Shown here in pieces: positions 1 to 31,879 of a stretch of DNA of 31,879 nt; positions within the stretch are counted from its first letter, which is position 1, and every line of letters starts with the position of its first letter. The notes under the pieces were generated by a model. That model had not been told where the DNA came from, made no database searches, and worked only from the letters and a program-made list of their open reading frames with translations. Position numbers and translations under genes: made by a program. The stretch covers positions 1 through 31,879 of IMG/VR virus record IMGVR_UViG_3300027782_000240; one strand, given 5' to 3'. Source of the DNA: a virus.

Positions 1-740
1 AAATTACCTTTGGCACTATAACTGGACTGTCAGAAGACAGAATATATGATGTCAGTGCACCACAAGGCCTGTTGTTGACTGACATACCAGCAAGTGAATC
101 AGGCAATTGTGATCAAATTACAAAGACACCGGCTCAACCAAGTCAACCCAGTGAAGCAAAGAAGTGGGAAATACGCACCGAAGTTCCATTGGCAGTGGTT
201 AGAGTAGAAGTTTGCACTTCTCCAAGCGGCAATGCCTTACCTGGCACCAATATCAAAATACATTTCAACAAGGCCATTTCTATAAAAGCCACAGGACCTG
301 CATTTGTCAGCATACTGAACACAGGATTGTTTAGTCCTACGCATCAAAAGATTGATCTCAAAGGCACCTATGCCAGCAAAAAATATGGAGACATATACAA
401 TGTGTCAGGCAAGGTGTTGACCCTGCAGCCAACTGAGCCACTCAAAGGCAACACCAACTACTATATAAACATAGACGCTGGCACGCTGATAGATACAGCC
501 TGTAATGTGGCATTCCCAGGTATCAGTGACACTACCACAGCAGCCTTTAAAACTGATGGTGCTGTGAGCACACCACCACAAAAACTAAGTGGCGGAAGCA
601 CATTGATTAAAATGCAATTTGATAGACCAGTTACTCCAGGACCTGGAATGTTTACAATAACCAAAGCCACCGGAGAATTGCTGACACAGTTTAGTTCAAC
701 AGACCTAGCAGTGAGATTTAGAGATAACCAACCGTTTTAA
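1..740 (+). CDS. Tail-tip / central fibre protein, C-terminal part (continues from the right end of the window)
   Basis: The reading frame is open from the first bases; the first possible internal start (TTG at 72) has no ribosome site, so the gene begins outside this end. The protein carries a bacterial Ig-like (SbsA/Big_5-type) segment at about nt 180-560, whose closing pattern (an NxxYYIN core, a TC pair, then AFKTDG) resembles one in the open gene at 31460-31580 (DYYIN, NCTC, WTFTTS). Overlapping the terminal AAAT of both ends joins the two parts in frame with no stop. The role would be the exposed distal end of the tail tip. Together the parts make about 1,389 residues. The join is inferred; without it this is a left-truncated structural gene of about 245 residues. 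Confidence 0.75.
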   Translation, partial: ITFGTITGLSEDRIYDVSAPQGLLLTDIPASESGNCDQITKTPAQPSQPSEAKKWEIRTEVPLAVVRVEVCTSPSGNALPGTNIKIHFNKAISIKATGPAFVSILNTGLFSPTHQKIDLKGTYASKKYGDIYNVSGKVLTLQPTEPLKGNTNYYINIDAGTLIDTACNVAFPGISDTTTAAFKTDGAVSTPPQKLSGGSTLIKMQFDRPVTPGPGMFTITKATGELLTQFSSTDLAVRFRDNQPF

Positions 741-3072: not shown

Positions 3073-3131
3073 AACTTTTTTTACCTTTTATTGTCTTTTA
3101 TCAGTGATTATTTAGGTTTTCACTAAATACA

Positions 3132-5489: not shown

Positions 5490-6820
5490 TGAGTGGCTTC
5501 TTGTCATCAATGGTAGGTGCTACCTATGCAGCCGAAGGGCCGCCACCTGCTGTTCCTAATACCTGGTCCAGTTATACCTACAACACTGCGTTTACTTCTG
5601 TTCGTAGGTATACTGGTCTTGCAACACAGAGCATTGCTTTCCACGGTGTCTATAACACTGACAAATTGGTTATGACATTTATTGTAGGTAATAGTGCAGG
5701 CAGCAGCCATAGTTATGGTGTAGGCGTGTTTGACCTAGGCACTAGAGTATTTGCCAAGAGTTCATTGACCAGTTTTGGAACCAGTTTCACTGCTGGGAAT
5801 TATTTTCCAGGCAGTATTGCTGCCAATGTGACCAATGCCTATACCAGCAGTGAGTATGGTGTGATTACCGCGTTCAAGAATAACTCAGGGCACATCAAAA
5901 TCAACGGATACACTTTGTCAGGATTGGCTACTTGTTCAACCTCAAGTTTACCAACATTGACATTAGGTGCTGAAGCCACAATAACTACTGCTGGATTTGG
6001 TGATCCTTGTTGTGTATTTGTTTCACCTGCAGGAACAGGAGGCACTGGTGGTAGGTTTGCTGTCACTAGACGAGACAATGTAGTGGGTGATTATAATGCA
6101 CACTGGGTCTACAATCACAATGGTGCTTCTGCTCCTACTATATACAAAACAGCGTCTACTGGTGGTTCTCAAGGCTCAGGCAAAATGTATGCAGTTAGAT
6201 CAGGCATAGACGCTGCCAATTTTGCAACCTTCTACTCATTCGCTGGCAACAACAACAACTCCATTGCTGATCATTTCCGCCAAGGTAATGCCAGCAATGA
6301 TAAACTAACAATTAGTGATGGTGGCTTTGGCAGTTTTGGCGGTAACAGTTTTACAGCCTCAATGATCAAAGATGTGTCTGGTGATGTAATTATAATGAGT
6401 CAAGTCAATGCCAGCGGCACACCCAAACACAGCCTTGCTAGATGGACCAATGCTAATTCTCCAACTGCGAATCCTTCAGTGACTAGAAGCACTGTGAGGA
6501 CTTGGGGTAATTTGTATAATACAGGTTTTTGTGTTGCTGGTGATTTAACCACTGCCACAACCACACATAGAATATATCTTCCTGTTAGTGACAACAACGC
6601 AATGAGATTTGACTATGTAGATGCAACATCAGGATCAGGGTTTGGTCTTCCAGCAACAGTTACCACAGGATTAACATCTGGTGCAGGCACTTATCCATCA
6701 TACTACGAGGTGCTTGCATTACCTTGGTATAATTCAACCTACGGTCAGTATGTGATTTCTTGGGCACACCACTATGACGACGATACTGTTGATTTGACCT
6801 TCCATAAATTTAATCCTTAA
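5489..6820 (+). CDS. Unknown surface/tail protein in the fibre block
   Basis: 443 residues from the ATG at 5489, which overlaps the previous stop as TAATG (5487-5491); an in-frame ATG at 5432 lies inside the preceding fibre gene and has no better ribosome site. The N-terminus MSGFLSSMVGATYAAEGPPP suggests a short anchoring segment, then a Pro linker. The rest is rich in Ser, Thr, Asn, Gly and aromatic residues with strand-like repeats, and could be a beta-propeller or beta-sandwich reading a surface ligand (motifs such as DKLVMTFIVG and QYVISWAHHYDDDTVDLTF). No catalytic motif is recognised. Probably coupled in translation to the fibre gene and part of the adhesion apparatus. Confidence 0.75.
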   Translation: MSGFLSSMVGATYAAEGPPPAVPNTWSSYTYNTAFTSVRRYTGLATQSIAFHGVYNTDKLVMTFIVGNSAGSSHSYGVGVFDLGTRVFAKSSLTSFGTSFTAGNYFPGSIAANVTNAYTSSEYGVITAFKNNSGHIKINGYTLSGLATCSTSSLPTLTLGAEATITTAGFGDPCCVFVSPAGTGGTGGRFAVTRRDNVVGDYNAHWVYNHNGASAPTIYKTASTGGSQGSGKMYAVRSGIDAANFATFYSFAGNNNNSIADHFRQGNASNDKLTISDGGFGSFGGNSFTASMIKDVSGDVIIMSQVNASGTPKHSLARWTNANSPTANPSVTRSTVRTWGNLYNTGFCVAGDLTTATTTHRIYLPVSDNNAMRFDYVDATSGSGFGLPATVTTGLTSGAGTYPSYYEVLALPWYNSTYGQYVISWAHHYDDDTVDLTFHKFNP

Positions 6821-6829
6821 GGAAAGATT

Positions 6830-9800
6830 GTGGATCAATTCTACTTTGAATCAGGATATGTTGAGGCAAGTTATTTTGCCTATATAGCACAGGCCTCTTC
6901 TGATGTGACATTGACAGCAGAAGTGTCAGCACAAGTTGTTATTGCCGTCACCACCGGCTACTACATTCCTGACTACATTGTCATTGACTATTATCAAGCC
7001 AGTGCTTTGGCTGAAGGCAGTGCAGTAATTTTATCATCATTTGCGGTTACATCTGCAGGTAATAAAATACGCAATGTTAATTCAGAATTTGCATCTGTAT
7101 TTGCATCAGCAAGTGCAGTAAACAAGACAGTGAGTGCCAATGCGGTGTTTACTGCCGCATTTACACAAACTGGCACAATCAGTCACATTGAAGGGGCTGA
7201 TCTATTTGCATTTAGCAATGCGGCTATCTCTGTTCAAGTAAGTAGAATCCGTAGTAACAATATTGCCGCTTCTGCGGTGTTTGATGTTGCCACGGACTTT
7301 GTGGTCAAACGCAATGCCGACGCCGATGTTGACAGCATATTCTCAGCCATCATTAATGGACTACGCAGCCGTGACACAAATACACAAACGCAGGCTGCGT
7401 TTTCTTTTGATGCCACTGTCAGGGCTACCAAAGTATTTGCCAGTGCAATATCAAGTCAAAGTTCTGTATCACTAATACCAAACCGCTTAAGAAATAACAC
7501 AATAGACACAGTCGCAACGGCAACAACATCAGCCACTGGTCTTAGAATTAGATCATCGGCAGTCAACCTTGCTGACCAATTTAGTGTTGATGTTACCGCA
7601 AGAAAATATCGTGATGCTATCTTAACCGGCACAGGCGTTGCAGTTATTGAATGTCTTGCAGTTAAAACAGCAAGAGCATCAAGCAGTCAACAGGCACAGT
7701 TTACGCAAACTGCGTTGGCTGGTAAAATTCAACCGGCTAATGCTATTATAGAAAGTTTTGCTTCTATATTAGTTTCGAGAAATGCAGGACCGCGTGGTCG
7801 ACCAAGAAATCTTATTGATAATTTTGTCAATAGCAGTCCTGGTTTTTCAACTAATGCAAAGTTTGGAAGTCACAGTCTTAGTAGTGGCAATAATTTTGTT
7901 GGTGCCACCAATGCTAATAATTTTGTAGTTCCAACCTCAGCACAGTCATTCTATTTGGAAATGTGGCATTACCCAACCACAAGTGATACCAATTACGAAT
8001 TCTTTTTAATGTTTGAGTTTTTTACAATCAGTCAAACCAACACTGGCAAATATAAATTTCAAGGATATGGCGGTGATCCTAATAATAGTAGTAGTGCCGG
8101 GCTGGCTTATGGATATACTCATACTGTTAATCATACACTTAATCAATGGAATCATTTAGCAATAGTCAAACAAGGAAATAGTCTTTCATATTACATAAAT
8201 GGCACCAGAGTTAAATTTTGGGGCTATCCAACTACCACAGACAATCCTAACGAACAACTGCCATTCTACGGCTGGGGAGCCACAGGCAATCAAAGTGGCG
8301 GAGTATATGGTTCAGGAACTATTAGAACCTCTAATATTAGTTGCCGAGGCGGCCCATATTTACTAGATGAAGTTTTCTTTGTTCACGATACCACATTAGG
8401 ATTTAGTCCTACAAGTGCAAGCATAGATGTGCCTACTCAGGCAAGATCTAACACAACAGATACTAAATTTTTATATCACTTTGACAACAATGTCAACGAC
8501 GATGTAAGCATCCAACATCTAGGATCTGCTGGTCTAACTTCTGTAAGTGCTGTATCAGCCACGGTTGGTTTTATTACCAATGCTCAATCCAACATATCAG
8601 CCTCGAGTAGCGTTACCGCAACCATTGGCACCTTAGAAAGTATTGAACTTGAGGCCTTCAGTAATGCCGCTGTCACAGCCAATGCCAATAGACTTCGAGG
8701 ATACAATGTTGCTTGTTCATCGGCATCATCACTATCTGCTACTGCATTTAGAATAAAACAATTACAGGCAAACCTTACTGCCGCAGTATCCGTAGTAACA
8801 ACGACAGATAGATTGCGTGACACAGCCATTGCGTTATCAACATCTGTTGCAGTCACAGCCCAAGGCAATGCAATTAGAAGTGGTAGTGCAGGAATTTTTG
8901 CAAACGCCACAGTCACAGCAATAATTGGTAGACTCCACGACATTAATCTTGTGGCATTTGCCAATGGCACAACCACAGCCATAGCCGTTAGAAACGCGGC
9001 TGGCCAAAGTTCAATCACAGGATCATTTACACAGTCAGCATCAGCAGTCAAGACTGCCGTTAGTGCCAGTGCCGTAACATCCGAAAATAGTCTAAGTGTA
9101 ATCAATACTAGATTAAAATTTGCTTCTGCAAGTCTAAGCAGTCAAGGGTCAACACTAACATTAGCCAGCGAATTTCAAAGTCTTATTGCCAACCTAAACA
9201 GTAGATTCTTTACTGCTCACATCTACATAGATGATGATTATCTGGCTTCAGGCTACTACGAACAATTTGAAACCACAGCAGTAAAAACTGCTCGTGGCAC
9301 CGCCGCATTTGAATCCGTTGTCACTCTTGTAGTAGGTCTAACTGGTTCTGTATTTGCGGTAATGACTACATCATCACAGGCATCCGTAATTGCCACTGTG
9401 GTCAAGCGTGTGAGCGTTAGTGTTACACAGGCTTTAGCATCTAGTGTCAATGTGGTTGTTGCAAAGACTGCCCGAGGTGTTACATCAATCTCCGCGGTAT
9501 CTACAGTAGTCTGTATTGGTAATACTACCAGTGAAATTAGTCTTTTGGCATTGGCAAATGCCAATGTGTCAGCCACTGTTGGCGTCATAAGACGAACCAG
9601 CATTGGTTTAAGTAGTCAAGCAACATTCTTTGTCTTTACGCAAGACAGTTTGAACAAGGTTCTTGAAGCAGACTTTAGCAGTCAATTATCGACAAACATT
9701 GTTGCAGTCAAACGAGTCAGTGCTGTCATTGTTACTGAAGCAGTGGCATCTTCATTGTCAGTGGTAGTTAAAGCAGTAGCAGTTCTAATACCATTAGACT

Positions 9801-10430: not shown

Positions 10431-10760
10431 ATGGCAATCCGTTCAGGATTTGAGCAAACTATCCAAGGACTAACAATCCAAAAGGACACAGAGGCTCGTT
10501 TAGTTTACACATTCGATTGGAGTGAATGGTTGCCTACCGGCGACACGATCTCCGCATCAACATACACCATCACAGCACGAACCAATGACCCAGATCCCTT
10601 GGCCATACACACGCAGGGCCGGACATCAACCTCTACCTATGTAGAACTCAAGGAAGGTCAAGAAGGCAAGATCTATACTGTGACTGTGCAAGTGACTACC
10701 ACAATGGGTTTGATTGATCGCAGAAACTTCCGCGTCAAAGTCCTAGCGAGGTCCGCATAA
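10431..10760 (+). CDS. Small Ig-like structural protein (possible fibre-tail adaptor)
   Basis: 109 residues; ATG 6 nt after AAGGAG (10419-10424). The chain alternates strands in an Ig/fibronectin-like pattern: LVYTFDWSEWLPTGDTISAS, TYTITARTNDP, then YTVTVQVTTTMGLIDRRNFRVKV. Small proteins of this kind with an SxWL and TVTVxVTTxxG pattern are frequent next to fibre genes in environmental phages and may link fibres to the tail. Its stop overlaps the next start as TAATG (10758-10762), so the two are translationally coupled. The fold is moderately supported; the adaptor role is a guess from context. Confidence 0.7.
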   Translation: MAIRSGFEQTIQGLTIQKDTEARLVYTFDWSEWLPTGDTISASTYTITARTNDPDPLAIHTQGRTSTSTYVELKEGQEGKIYTVTVQVTTTMGLIDRRNFRVKVLARSA

Positions 10761-10951: not shown

Positions 10952-11154
10952 TGCCAGCACCACAAGATTTACAGCAAGCCAGAATGGCTATATGCGAAAG
11001 TTGTCCAGAACTAACTACACTTAACAGATGTCAACAATGCGGGTGCTTTATGACACTGAAGACGAGGTTAATCGGTGCTCATTGTCCTTTGGGAAAGTGG
11101 CCGTTATATGAAGAATGGATGACGAAGAATTCAGAAGAAGGCTTAGCGAAGTAG
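10951..11154 (+). CDS. Small cysteine-rich (zinc-ribbon-like) protein
   Basis: 67 residues from the ATG at 10951, which shares TAATG with the previous stop; a possible upstream in-frame start lies inside the preceding gene. Cysteines are arranged CESC (about residues 15-18), CQQCGC (about 28-33) and HC (about 45), followed by PLGKWP. This looks like a zinc ribbon of a type common in phages, with an N-terminal ARMAICESCPE helix. No nuclease residues are evident. It overlaps the next gene by 40 nt. Binding of zinc and possibly nucleic acid or protein is inferred from cysteine spacing only. Confidence 0.7.
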   Translation: MPAPQDLQQARMAICESCPELTTLNRCQQCGCFMTLKTRLIGAHCPLGKWPLYEEWMTKNSEEGLAK

Positions 11155-11594
11155 CAGAGTGGCGATTTCCCAAAGTCAGCGAAACTGAGATTGCCAAAAG
11201 TCGCAAAATGGCCAGAGGCAAACACAAACCTATCACTGAAGACCAAGAGTTTGAAATAGGTGTTGAACTCATTGATGGAGTAAATCCCACAACAGTGCCC
11301 ATATTGGTCAAACTCAAACCCTGTGCAACAACCTGCGAAGACTGCGGCAAACACTGTCCCAATGGCAGACAAACCACTGCCAAAGTATATCCATCAAGAA
11401 CACTGGGCAATCATTGGCGTAAACGATGCGTGACCTGTCAACGATATCTTAACAAAGACACTGGCAAATACACTGTGCCAGACAACAATGCCTCAAATCA
11501 TTACAGCACTAGAATGAGTCCAGGACATCAAGTCACATTTGAAAATGATCAAGAAATCATCACAATTCATTCTGAAAATACGCAGTCGGAATAA
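11115..11594 (+). CDS. Unknown protein with CxxC-CxxC zinc-binding pattern
   Basis: 159 residues, starting inside the preceding gene (40-nt overlap). A charged N-terminal helix (DDEEFRRRLSEVAEWRFPKV) leads to a putative metal site: CATTCEDCGKHC at about residues 69-80 and CVTC at about 108-111. An ITIHSEN tail ends the protein. The two cysteine clusters with basic residues between them (TLGNHWRKR) resemble a treble-clef or zinc ribbon. I do not recognise a family. With its upstream neighbour it forms a pair of cysteine-rich proteins at the end of the fibre block, followed by a terminator. Confidence 0.7.
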   Translation: MDDEEFRRRLSEVAEWRFPKVSETEIAKSRKMARGKHKPITEDQEFEIGVELIDGVNPTTVPILVKLKPCATTCEDCGKHCPNGRQTTAKVYPSRTLGNHWRKRCVTCQRYLNKDTGKYTVPDNNASNHYSTRMSPGHQVTFENDQEIITIHSENTQSE

Positions 11595-11694
11595 ATAATA
11601 TTAGCAGGGACACAATATCCGTTAATCCTGGATGGTTTGGCTGTCACTAAATCAAAAAGTAGTTTCTTATTGCCATTAGAAACGAGCCCTGTTA

Positions 11695-11725
11695 GAAACC
11701 CGGTCTTTACCGGGTTTCGTCTTTT
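11695..11725 (+). terminator. Rho-independent terminator closing the fibre/tail transcript
   Basis: GAAACCCGG (11695-11703) pairs perfectly with CCGGGTTTC (11710-11718) around a TCTTTA loop, followed by GTCTTTT. It separates the structural block from the early region. Confidence 0.85.
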
Positions 11726-11746: not shown

Positions 11747-11775
11747 TTGTAAAATTTTTATCAATCTGTTATACT
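11747..11775 (+). promoter_or_regulatory. Sigma70-type promoter (TTGTAA-17-TATACT)
   Basis: TTGTAA (11747-11752) and TATACT (11770-11775) are separated by exactly 17 bases. It faces the early region just downstream of the terminator, with a start point expected near 11782. Confidence 0.8.
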
Positions 11776-11823
11776 ATATTACGGGCTGAGCCACCGTGTT
11801 TAACAGATTGGTAATCTTGATGA

Positions 11824-11851
11824 TTGCTTTATATTCTTACGGCTGTATAAT
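11824..11851 (+). promoter_or_regulatory. Second tandem sigma70-type promoter (TTGCTT-16-TATAAT)
   Basis: TTGCTT (11824-11829) and a perfect TATAAT (11846-11851) with a 16-base spacer. It would give a transcript starting near 11858, just upstream of the ribosome site for the gene at 11895. It lies inside the possible GTG-started extension of that gene. Confidence 0.5.
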
Positions 11852-11894
11852 AGTATTTGTAGTGACAGCACTACATAACTTAAAGGAAAACAAA

Positions 11895-12071
11895 ATGGTA
11901 AGCAAAGAACAAGTAGATAGAATAGTAGATGCAATTGAAGGCATCGGTTGTGTAAATGATATTGATACTGATCATAATTTTGATTTACTCATAAGTTGGG
12001 TTGTTGAAATAAACAAGAATTTAGAAGACATTGCTAATACATTCAAAAAAATTGAAGCAAAAATGAAATAA
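11895..12071 (+). CDS. Small early protein, unknown function
   Basis: 58 residues from the ATG at 11895, preceded by AAAGGAAAA (11882-11890). The protein is helical and acidic with a KExVDRIVDAIE helix, a short loop containing GCVNDIDTDHN, and a final helix rich in Lys and Glu. An in-frame GTG at 11796 would add 33 residues including a membrane-like segment (LVILMIALYSYGCIIVFVV), but it lacks a ribosome site and overlaps the second promoter; I prefer the short form while noting a membrane-anchored long form could be made from the first promoter. No family recognised. A terminator follows six bases after the stop. Confidence 0.65.
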   Translation: MVSKEQVDRIVDAIEGIGCVNDIDTDHNFDLLISWVVEINKNLEDIANTFKKIEAKMK

Positions 12072-12076
12072 GGATT

Positions 12077-12100
12077 GGGCACTTAGGTGCCCTTTCTTTT
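12077..12100 (+). terminator. Rho-independent terminator after the 11895 gene
   Basis: GGGCAC (12077-12082), TTAG loop, GTGCCC (12087-12092), then TTTCTTTT. A compact standard terminator that should insulate the non-coding region downstream. Confidence 0.85.
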
Positions 12101-12129
12101 AACCACATTTCCCCCCAATATTTTAGGTC

Positions 12130-12700
12130 CCTGCTAAATAAGTGTGACAGGCAAAACACTTAGGCATCATTGGCAATTCAAATCATTCTAGGCATATCAT
12201 CTAACACATAAGGTTGGCCCGCCGGTTATAATCGGGCTGTGGAAAAACCAGGGAATAACTGGACACGCAACATATTGAGGCACCCCCGTTGCCAAGGCAA
12301 CTATCCTGAAAAATCGGAAGTGGGTTGAGGTTGAAAACAAAGATAACCGACGCATTGATATAGTATGAATTGTTAGCATACGAACACACTGGCTATAAAC
12401 ATCTAGACACTAGGAACGAGGTCTAGAATACTTTTTAAAGTATATCGTGGCAGGTAAGGAAAAGCACAGAGTCCTTTAGCATACAGTGATCAAAACACCT
12501 GCTTCCATAAGTCTTGGCTGGGGCAACTCACATAAAGATAGACGGTGCCGCACAAAACGGTTCCGTCTGACTGAAACAATCTACATAAAGTTTCTAAAAC
12601 AAATAATATCTCACTTATTTCATACATCTTCTGTTTTAGAAAGCGAAGCGAAATACGAAATCGCGAAAGCGATTGAGTTGATGTCTGTAAGACATCATTA
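12130..12700 (+). ncRNA. Candidate large structured non-coding RNA
   Basis: The longest stretch in the window without a credible gene, yet densely structured. Perfect stems seen: 12139-12145/12156-12162 (7 bp); 12217-12221/12233-12237 (5 bp), whose loop bases 12223-12229 (CGGTTAT) are complementary over 7 bp to 12343-12349 (ATAACCG); 12288-12292/12297-12301 (5 bp); 12402-12408/12421-12427 (7 bp); 12428-12433/12438-12443 (6 bp); 12450-12455/12497-12502 (6 bp) enclosing 12456-12460/12472-12476 (5 bp); 12540-12550/12558-12568 (6+4 bp with one U-U mismatch); 12591-12600/12633-12642 (10 bp) enclosing 12601-12606/12615-12620 (6 bp); 12659-12664/12669-12674 (6 bp) capped by GAAA; and 12679-12686/12690-12697 (8 bp). 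TTAGCATAC occurs twice (12373 and 12476). Ends are approximate. The upstream terminator implies its own promoter; only a weak candidate (TTGGCA at 12170) is visible. Size and setting recall large phage RNAs such as GOLLD and ROOL, but I cannot match either. Confidence 0.6.
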
Positions 12701-12707
12701 GTAGTCC

Positions 12708-12803
12708 AAAATGTCTTAGAGGAATCGATTGGTAAAATGTCTTATTGACATTGCCACGGATTGGTGCTATACTATGTGTATGGTGTTATTTTACACTGAC
12801 ATT
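12708..12803 (+). promoter_or_regulatory. AATGTC/GACATT repeats around an early promoter (possible operator)
   Basis: AATGTC occurs at 12710-12715 and 12736-12741, and its complement GACATT at 12747-12752 and 12798-12803. The middle pair forms an inverted repeat with a 5-base spacer that covers the -35 box of the 12745 promoter. AAAATGTCTTA is directly repeated at 12708-12718 and 12734-12744. The layout suggests binding sites for a repressor or activator; no candidate regulator is identified. Confidence 0.45.
12745..12773 (+). promoter_or_regulatory. Strong sigma70-type promoter (TTGACA-17-TATACT)
   Basis: Consensus TTGACA (12745-12750) and TATACT (12768-12773) with a 17-base spacer. It drives the three-gene cluster 12818-13396. 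Confidence 0.9.
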
Positions 12804-12817
12804 TAGGTAGAACATAA

Positions 12818-13078
12818 ATGACACAAGTCAAGACAGCAAACATTACCAAACTAAACCAGTTTGAACTTAATCAAAAAGTCCTTACTACTGACTATGGTTT
12901 TTTGGGCACAATTAGAGAGTTTGGTTATCTCAATGACACAGCCTTTAACCGCGAATGGTTAGACGAGCAATCAAAACCTTGGACTTCAGATGAAACCACA
13001 GGTATTGTGGCTATTTTGAGTGTGCTACCCCGTGGTAGTGCTATTGTTCCAGTTTCTCGTTTAGAGGTAGCAGAATGA
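12818..13078 (+). CDS. Small early protein, unknown
   Basis: 86 residues; ATG 8 nt after AGGTAG. First gene after the promoter at 12745. The sequence has an FELNQKVLTTDYGFLGTIREFGY segment resembling a small beta-barrel (SH3-like) start, a WLDEQSKPWTSDETTG loop, then a strand-rich end (IVAILSVLPRGSAIVPVSRLEVAE). No motif of known function is recognised. Its stop overlaps the next start as ATGA (13075-13078), so the two are probably coupled. Early takeover or regulatory proteins often occupy such positions; that is inference from context only. Confidence 0.65.
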   Translation: MTQVKTANITKLNQFELNQKVLTTDYGFLGTIREFGYLNDTAFNREWLDEQSKPWTSDETTGIVAILSVLPRGSAIVPVSRLEVAE

Positions 13079-31400: not shown

Positions 31401-31879
31401 ACATTGCCTGTGGCTAACACAATAATTCACACAGACATTGTAGAACTGCCGTTCAAAGACAGAAAGCCTGGCACTGACTATTATATAAACTGGACTGCCG
31501 GCGTAGTTACCAATTGCACCTGTGAAAATGATGCAATCGAAGTATCAGAAAATTGGACATTTACAACCAGTCTTACACCAGTAACAGCCTTGGTCAAACC
31601 AGGTGGTGCCGCTCAGTTCACATACGATATTAACGACCAAAGAACTAACAAAGGAGCAAAAATACAGTTTACTCCGACACCGTTAGGCACATTGTGTTTG
31701 ACCAATCAAACACTGGTATTGACCTTTGGCACAAAGATGAAAAAAGGGTCAGGCAGTGTGACATTCACTGACAGGCTTACAGGCACCGTAGCAGCCAGTC
31801 TAAGTGTCAGTGCCGCCACTGTGAGCGTAGAAGGAGATAAAACACCAGCAGGTGTTGCAATTCCAGTAGGCACTAAAAT
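28446..31879 (+). CDS. Tail-tip / central fibre protein, N-terminal part (runs off the window)
   Basis: An ATG at 28446 within ATGA opens a frame with no stop to the window end (1,144 residues). N-terminus: SFLSDIVDFGKTAVGIVSGN and LARTAILGYAVNRL, then an IPVLYGSAFFGGNIIDA segment, as in lambda J-like/TipJ tail-tip proteins. Strand-rich domains follow; a hydrophobic stretch GGLLGALSLVSLLSKVSDLF lies at about residues 640-660. The last third (from about nt 31300) has bacterial Ig-like repeats. Joined with nt 1-740 through the shared AAAT it makes 1,389 residues. It forms the tip that contacts the host and receives the fibres encoded downstream. Confidence 0.88.
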   Translation, partial: MSFLSDIVDFGKTAVGIVSGNSIFGTLARTAILGYAVNRLSQSANKGQDSGTNNIDEGVRLQVKPNADSKIPVLYGSAFFGGNIIDAAMTNSNKTMWFALALTEKTGSLYSTSAATTYLLNNVYLNDQRVQFQGDGITVDYTLDRAGTIDRNASGLIQIYFYAGGRTAGQKPVGFAGAVANAETLFPNWTSGTHALTNVVFALVKVDYNRDKGITGLPDVKFNIASSMFTPGDVIYDYLTNTTYGAGISAGDILTTDITALNTYSLASVAYADQGTGAQTLGDRYQINGLIDTANTVLDNSEAILNATASWLSYDTHEGKWGVIINKAETSVAAFNDTNIIGNISVSGTGLQDLYNAVKVQFPHRELRDSADFYNISVPTSSVPADWSPFSLNTNEEPKTLNITYDIINEPVQAQMLGLIELKQSRIDKVIQFKTDWTYYNLKAGDVIDVTNSRFGFSAKLFRIIAVKEQQDNDGALMMDITALEYNVNVYSVADLYRFTRSDANGIITFGSIGTPGTPTVSKVEIDSRPRVQISTTAPTGIVEAIEFWLSNDVSLADANRSYRVISVERPVGGGVYTSGTAVTFEYDSVSSSDFVVKTRGINTATTGPFSAVSGLVNFVPRQTTQAIDSSTSLFNSTGGLLGALSLVSLLSKVSDLFGSGDTSKSLFTRIFETFQSTTGLDILGQASGGSLVVASNLTVKADTVNLTTAATSVDFKTPLLATGGPAVEVKIKPGVKNKDILAYNKETAQWQTISDCVVCDFVNTPPADEASTPCKLIVASKSPASNFGGVDANTDVCVASSNVPFVGSYFIQFNLQQERLGRTPGLASTITTTTEYKYKIAQAGTTDFTFWGAANNTVGTEWFATSPATNFPTGKTLDVITVGKRYKIRTVGSTTTAQWRSIGVDDAATPAVDLEFIATATLSPVYVGSGTVKEATGSGWVYGPPGAFKTSVNTPGFVAKSAVSQLVKGTGSFKLYTTNGDLVETLPVANTIIHTDIVELPFKDRKPGTDYYINWTAGVVTNCTCENDAIEVSENWTFTTSLTPVTALVKPGGAAQFTYDINDQRTNKGAKIQFTPTPLGTLCLTNQTLVLTFGTKMKKGSGSVTFTDRLTGTVAASLSVSAATVSVEGDKTPAGVAIPVGTK

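Follow-up and report, generated by a model that had tools for sequence, protein, structure and literature searches.

Positions 12093–12744 of a small siphophage sequence lie between the terminator of one gene and the promoter of the next and contain no credible gene, which raises the question of whether the stretch encodes a functional RNA and, if so, of what class and to what end. A preliminary description proposed a large functional RNA here, possibly of a new class. The sequence analyzed (hereafter, the window) is one IMG/VR virus record, IMGVR_UViG_3300027782_000240, of 31,879 bases that codes for a terminase large subunit (TerL), an SPP1-type portal, a lambda-type tape measure, and tail proteins. 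Judged by TerL, its nearest deposited phages are the lake phage DSL-LC06 (54%) and 31–32-kb pelagiphages. Both ends of the window (1–4 and 31876–31879) have AAAT in common and the open frames at the two ends fuse in frame, which raises the possibility that the record is an almost complete circular map of ~31.9 kb.

The functional unit is built around a core, preceded by a leader that starts near 12134 and followed by a 3' domain that runs to about 12697 (Table 1). The borders first drawn for it (12130–12700) are nearly exact, and the flanking signals and reading frames agree with the account of some 570 bases without a credible gene between a terminator and a promoter.

Table 1. Features of the RNA locus in window coordinates.
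Feature	Position	Strand	Evidence
Intrinsic terminator of upstream gene, left border	12077..12092	+	Terminator scan
CTAAATA box, T4-late-promoter-like; probable RNA promoter	12134..12140	+	Box frequency in small-phage copies
5' leader of the RNA	12141..12200	+	Comparison of relatives
Conserved RNA core, 390 nt	12201..12590	+	65 distinct full-length homologs; covariation
Pseudoknot 1	12201..12206 (CUAACA) / 12371..12376 (UGUUAG)	+	Compensatory changes
Hairpin H1	12216..12238 (12216-12220/12234-12238)	+	12219/12235 E=0.01, tree-aware null
Hairpin H2	12248..12262 (12248-12251/12259-12262)	+	Double changes in all 4 pairs
Multi-branch domain closed by 12272-12278/12355-12361	12272..12361	+	Covariation
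Long helix domain; hairpins 12402-12427, 12429-12442, 12457-12475	12386..12488	+	Covariation
Pseudoknot 2	12450..12454 (GCAGG) / 12498..12502 (CCUGC)	+	Compensatory changes
3' rod hairpin AGACGGUGCCG...CGGUUCCGUCU	12540..12568	+	99.5% paired
GAAA-capped hairpin, 3' domain	12659..12674	+	Sequence
Terminator-like hairpin; probable transcript 3' end	12679..12697	+	Downstream hairpin in relatives
Sigma70-type promoter of next gene, right border	12745..12773	+	TTGACA-17-TATACT, 11 of 12

When folded as a single sequence, the stretch is modestly better than shuffles (z of about -2.2). Because single-sequence stems only modestly beat chance, proof had to be comparative and relatives were sought. The flanking ORF 11115–11594, used as bait, led to six contigs, in one of which (L007) the flanking protein is only 41% identical to that of the window while the noncoding stretch is 88% identical; the neighboring ORF 12818–13078 yielded no relatives. 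Further copies were identified with DNA patterns derived from the noncoding stretch and then confirmed by nucleotide profile. The RNA was detected in about 98 IMG/VR contigs, comprising 65 distinct full-length copies that are 49–100% identical to that of the window (nucleotide profile). The segment common to all copies has sharp limits, those of the core, and the parts that recur across contigs are the core, a 3' hairpin, and the terminator-like hairpin. Carriers range from small siphophages of ~30 kb to T4-like phages (contigs of up to 364 kb), and the RNA is so far known from uncultured phage contigs only.

In L006, a close relative of the window, the core is missing and a structured but unrelated stretch stands there instead, so not every phage of the group depends on the RNA. 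At positions 6700–6990 of this contig, the leader (window 12095–12180) is kept and is followed by a different, well-folding noncoding stretch (z of -3.1). That stretch was rejected as a diverged copy since the profile does not detect it, and a pattern derived from it matched its own contig alone and revealed no relatives. Two other copies (L056, 4078–4443; L059, 939–1314) lack precisely hairpin 12329–12348, which shows that the RNA can do without this arm.

Of the six reading frames, none runs uninterrupted across the core in more than 1 of the 65 copies, and indels and stop codons in the copies led us to reject a coding gene. A conserved protein, the finding that the preliminary description had said would overturn its reading, is absent from the stretch. 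G-U pairs are kept at many places and would be A-C on the other strand, which identifies the + strand as the RNA. Two marks of a large structured phage noncoding RNA, namely a structure kept by covariation and the lack of a conserved ORF, are present.

The evidence for the structure comes from several comparisons. RNAalifold, applied to 28 copies, returned 82 pairs, 26 with double changes. In the model that includes two pseudoknots, 99.5% of cells are paired, as compared to 93.2% in shuffles (0 of 500), and pairing drops to 33–42% of cells when partners are slid. Double changes occupy 171 cells versus 44 in shuffles, and 27 of 93 pairs changed on both sides. Covariation was evaluated with a script modelled on R-scape, not R-scape itself (G-test with APC, substitutions reshuffled along the tree). 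Among all column pairs, 8 reached E ≤ 0.05 in 65 copies, 7 of which are canonical and in proposed helices; with 48 copies there were 9, of which 8 are canonical. The covariation check that had been suggested for this locus, run with this R-scape-like script, therefore indicates that base pairs are kept by compensatory change. From these comparisons, the RNA is predicted to fold into a 390-nt body, in which some 16 helices are combined with two pseudoknots, and an additional 3' hairpin domain.

Pseudoknot 1 is paired in 98–100% of copies, with compensatory changes in 5 of its 6 pairs (for example, CUGACA/UGUCAG in L059 and L063); taken singly it is weak (best p of 0.006). Its 3' strand is in the loop of hairpin 12363–12381. 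Pseudoknot 2 is 100% paired across copies (best p of 3.5e-4) and occurs as GCAGG/CCUGC, GUAGG/CCUAC, and GUUGG/CCAAC. Hairpin H1 is formed by GCCCG/CGGGC in some copies and by GCGGG/CCGC in others. The multi-branch domain contains hairpins 12288–12301 and 12329–12348, and its pairs 12290/12299, 12292/12297, and 12331/12346 each have E < 0.01. Within the long helix domain, hairpin 12457–12475 displays the highly conserved loop AAAGCACAGAG. The 3' rod hairpin exhibits one-sided changes only. Across the RNA, the letters of stems vary more than those of loops and junctions. Unpaired A's at alignment positions 12534 and 12587, in a repeated motif ACAUAAA, become G's together (AA/GG, E=0.05, 48-copy test), which may reflect either a tertiary contact or common descent.

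Some long stems of the window, such as the 11-bp stem 12591–12601/12632–12642, are absent in relatives. The kissing contact that the preliminary description placed at 12223–12229/12343–12349 did not survive comparison. Although the two segments are complementary in the window, the contact is not conserved: several of its seven pairs form in only 13–43% of copies, and compensating changes are almost absent in relatives. The GAAA-capped hairpin, in turn, is real. In T4-like copies the corresponding place is taken by a hairpin that has a GA/GAA internal loop and precedes the end hairpin. Of 64 copies, 30 carry this GA/GAA hairpin (0.06 expected), with 16 different stems among them. In 59 of 64 copies (5.9 expected), the core is followed by a perfect hairpin of 7 bp or more; its stem letters vary freely, and T's often come after it, but the T runs are short. 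The terminator-like hairpin is the probable 3' end of the transcript.

The beginning of the transcript can be approached in the small phages. Among 25 small-phage copies, 19 (2.8 expected) have a box of the TATAAATA/CTAAATA type, which has the form of the T4 late promoter, at 22–72 nt before the core. The same type of box precedes structural genes at window positions 3123, 20870, and 23954, and these three and the box at 12134 are all intergenic and before late genes in this ~32-kb siphophage. Despite these T4-late-like boxes, no gp55-like factor was noticed in the window phage. In the group of phages to which the window belongs, the RNA is probably transcribed rightward from this box along with the structural genes, and the form of the box leads us to infer late expression. 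That argument extends to small phages only, since the box was found within 1200 nt upstream in just 1 of 27 T4-like copies. The leader is replaced by an ORF in some relatives (L037, L062, L064), and in T4-like phages its position is taken by a SegE gene or its companion ORF.

A second conserved structured RNA, of about 125 nt, lies nearby at 11590–11718 and features an ATAAATA box, a hairpin with an invariant loop UUGCCAU, and an intrinsic terminator. Its homologs, 14 distinct sequences counting that of the window, show compensating changes in 8 of 24 pairs, and 5 of 329 cells are unpaired versus 29 in shuffles. The loop (window 11670–11676) is the reverse complement of AUGGCAA, which is the start of ORF 10431 (window 10431–10437) and also starts ORFs, or what remains of them, that precede the large RNA in L062, L064, L094, and L047. 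This complementarity suggests that the second RNA might be an antisense regulator of AUGGCAA starts. Between the two RNAs, positions 11747–12092 comprise a small ORF (11890–12071) with its own sigma70-type promoter and terminator; a similar insertion was identified in L022.

The genomic setting of the large RNA differs between two groups of carriers. In small siphophages it follows tail-end genes about 2.5–6 kb upstream of terL, and this locus is unchanged even where TerL is just 48–55% identical to that of the window. In the second group, the RNA lies directly behind a SegE-like GIY-YIG gene (Pfam SegE_GIY-YIG, PF19835; 1e-32), with or without a small companion ORF, and because neighboring genes match gp46/gp47-type and T4-type portal families, these carriers are considered T4-like phages. 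Several small phages have the SegE gene after the RNA instead, whereas many small-phage copies, including that of the window, have none. A SegE-type endonuclease may spread the RNA between phages, by analogy with SegB and the T4 tRNA genes, and the link may explain how the RNA reached both phage groups; no SegE cleavage site was identified. SegB is reported to promote amplification of anti-defence loci (PMC13096335).

The preliminary description could not match a GOLLD or ROOL consensus and suggested that the RNA may be a new class. Consistent with this, Rfam 15 returned no family for the window at the gathering score, and none at permissive values either, for the stretch itself (up to E=10) or for nine relatives (up to E=1). 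The models that gave no match in the window or these relatives include GOLLD, ROOL, group I and II introns, and RNase P. Weak matches to STnc490, OmrA-B, skipping-rope, and isrG were far below gathering scores and were rejected. Neither ARAGORN nor Rfam detected a tmRNA (tRNA-like domain, tag frame) in the window or relatives, and ARAGORN detected no tRNA in the window or in 37 loci. Screening of 50,697 deposited phage records revealed no real DNA match, and a single DNA pattern applied to 84,980 bacterial and archaeal genomes (species) gave 4 matches, all chance by profile; that pattern catches about 60% of known copies, and rare prophage copies may escape it. In the stretches read upstream of terL in the nearest phages by TerL (DSL-LC06, HTVC111P, and HTVC112P), there is no annotation gap of similar size, and Melnitz has merely a short gap after its SegE homolog. 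The literature found on large ornate RNAs, in a limited library, describes GOLLD, ROOL, and OLE and not this RNA (PMC12286853). Since no known family was matched, we consider the RNA a separate class within the large structured phage RNAs rather than a member of GOLLD or ROOL.

Collectively, covariation, the lack of a coding frame, and wide occurrence in unrelated phages support the initial proposal of a large functional RNA. The comparisons establish its structure, strand, borders, and distribution, and that it is noncoding. The explanation that we favor overall, and consider probable, is a free-standing gene for a structured, noncoding, trans-acting RNA of a new class that is directed at the host. 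Its product would be an RNA of about 500–560 nt that, in the window group, is transcribed from the late-type box to the end hairpin, folds into the body and 3' domain described above, and acts in trans as RNA or as an RNA-protein particle. We infer that it most likely acts on a host component that all carriers encounter, for instance the machinery of translation or RNA processing, and not on a structural protein of the phage. Siphophages with SPP1-type portals and T4-like phages keep the same loops amid different gene neighbors, and the greater conservation of loops and junctions relative to stem letters points the same way. The RNA probably does a job needed by many unrelated phages. More specifically, the class could be an RNA machine or RNA-only particle that acts on a conserved host target and spreads with a SegE-type endonuclease, a tentative proposal that we would sooner doubt than accept.

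The strongest rival, itself compatible with a host target and in our view rather unlikely, is that copies of a late phage RNA self-assemble, in the manner of GOLLD or ROOL, into a closed particle that holds or sequesters cargo. GOLLD and ROOL are unrelated to each other and both form cages, and GOLLD levels go up during lysis (PMC12286853). The present RNA is likewise large, phage-borne, free-standing, and noncoding, with more than one pseudoknot, but it is shorter, matches neither of them in sequence or structure, and has no tRNA genes nearby in the 37 loci.

It is improbable that the RNA is a novel ribozyme or a relic of some mobile, intron-like element spreading with the SegE endonuclease. 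Large ribozymes typically have a size, pseudoknots, and invariant junctions like those of this RNA, and the GIY-YIG gene adjoins it in T4-like copies and several small phages. However, no intron model was matched, and no gene is interrupted: on either side lies intergenic sequence or the natural end of an ORF, and these flanks vary from phage to phage. Moreover, many small-phage copies are without SegE, and the RNA occupies one fixed locus across very diverged small siphophages.

It is very unlikely that the RNA acts in cis on the gene that follows, as a riboswitch or attenuator in its leader. The terminator-like hairpin after the core, followed by SegE in several small phages, would fit such a role, but the RNA is not upstream of and in line with the same gene in all copies: downstream genes differ between phages, and the next gene in the window has a separate promoter. 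In T4-like phages the RNA lies behind SegE and in 16 of 37 copies the ORF that comes next is encoded on the opposite strand, which rules out a leader function there. Least likely of all is a DNA element such as an origin or packaging site, for although the stretch is noncoding, conserved, and 2.5–6 kb upstream of terL in small phages, the kept G-U pairs, the pseudoknots, the loops more conserved than stems, the oriented promoter box and end hairpin, and the different location in T4-like phages argue against it.

To our knowledge, only a few classes of large structured RNA are described in bacteria and phages, OLE, GOLLD, and ROOL among them, and what several of these classes do is still unknown. 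The occurrence of the RNA in siphophages of ~30 kb as well as in T4-like phages of up to hundreds of kilobases makes the host-directed role that we favor testable. The RNA is also a compact structural target for asking whether large phage RNAs form cages as a rule, and its association with SegE suggests that homing endonucleases may carry noncoding RNA genes other than those of tRNAs.

Among known systems, the RNA resembles GOLLD and ROOL in kind and not in sequence or fold. It shares with GOLLD the properties of a large structured, free-standing, noncoding phage RNA. GOLLD is frequently, though not universally, located near tRNA genes, a setting that this RNA lacks. GOLLD rises in lysis (PMC12286853), and the RNA described here is argued to be late in small phages. 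With ROOL it has in common several pseudoknots, a phage origin, and no coding frame; it differs in lacking a tRNA island. At about 500 nt it is shorter than either (about 660 to over 800 nt), and it matches the Rfam model of neither. The arrangement in T4-like phages recalls SegB and the T4 tRNA region, where a GIY-YIG endonuclease gene also adjoins stable-RNA genes, but the endonuclease here is SegE-like (PF19835), the RNA is not a tRNA, and in many small phages it has no adjoining endonuclease. Group I introns of T4-like phages are likewise structured, pseudoknotted phage RNAs with a GIY-YIG gene nearby; the present RNA differs from them in having no group I match and no interrupted gene and, in our reading, in the order of its two pseudoknots, which does not resemble that of a P3/P7 core.
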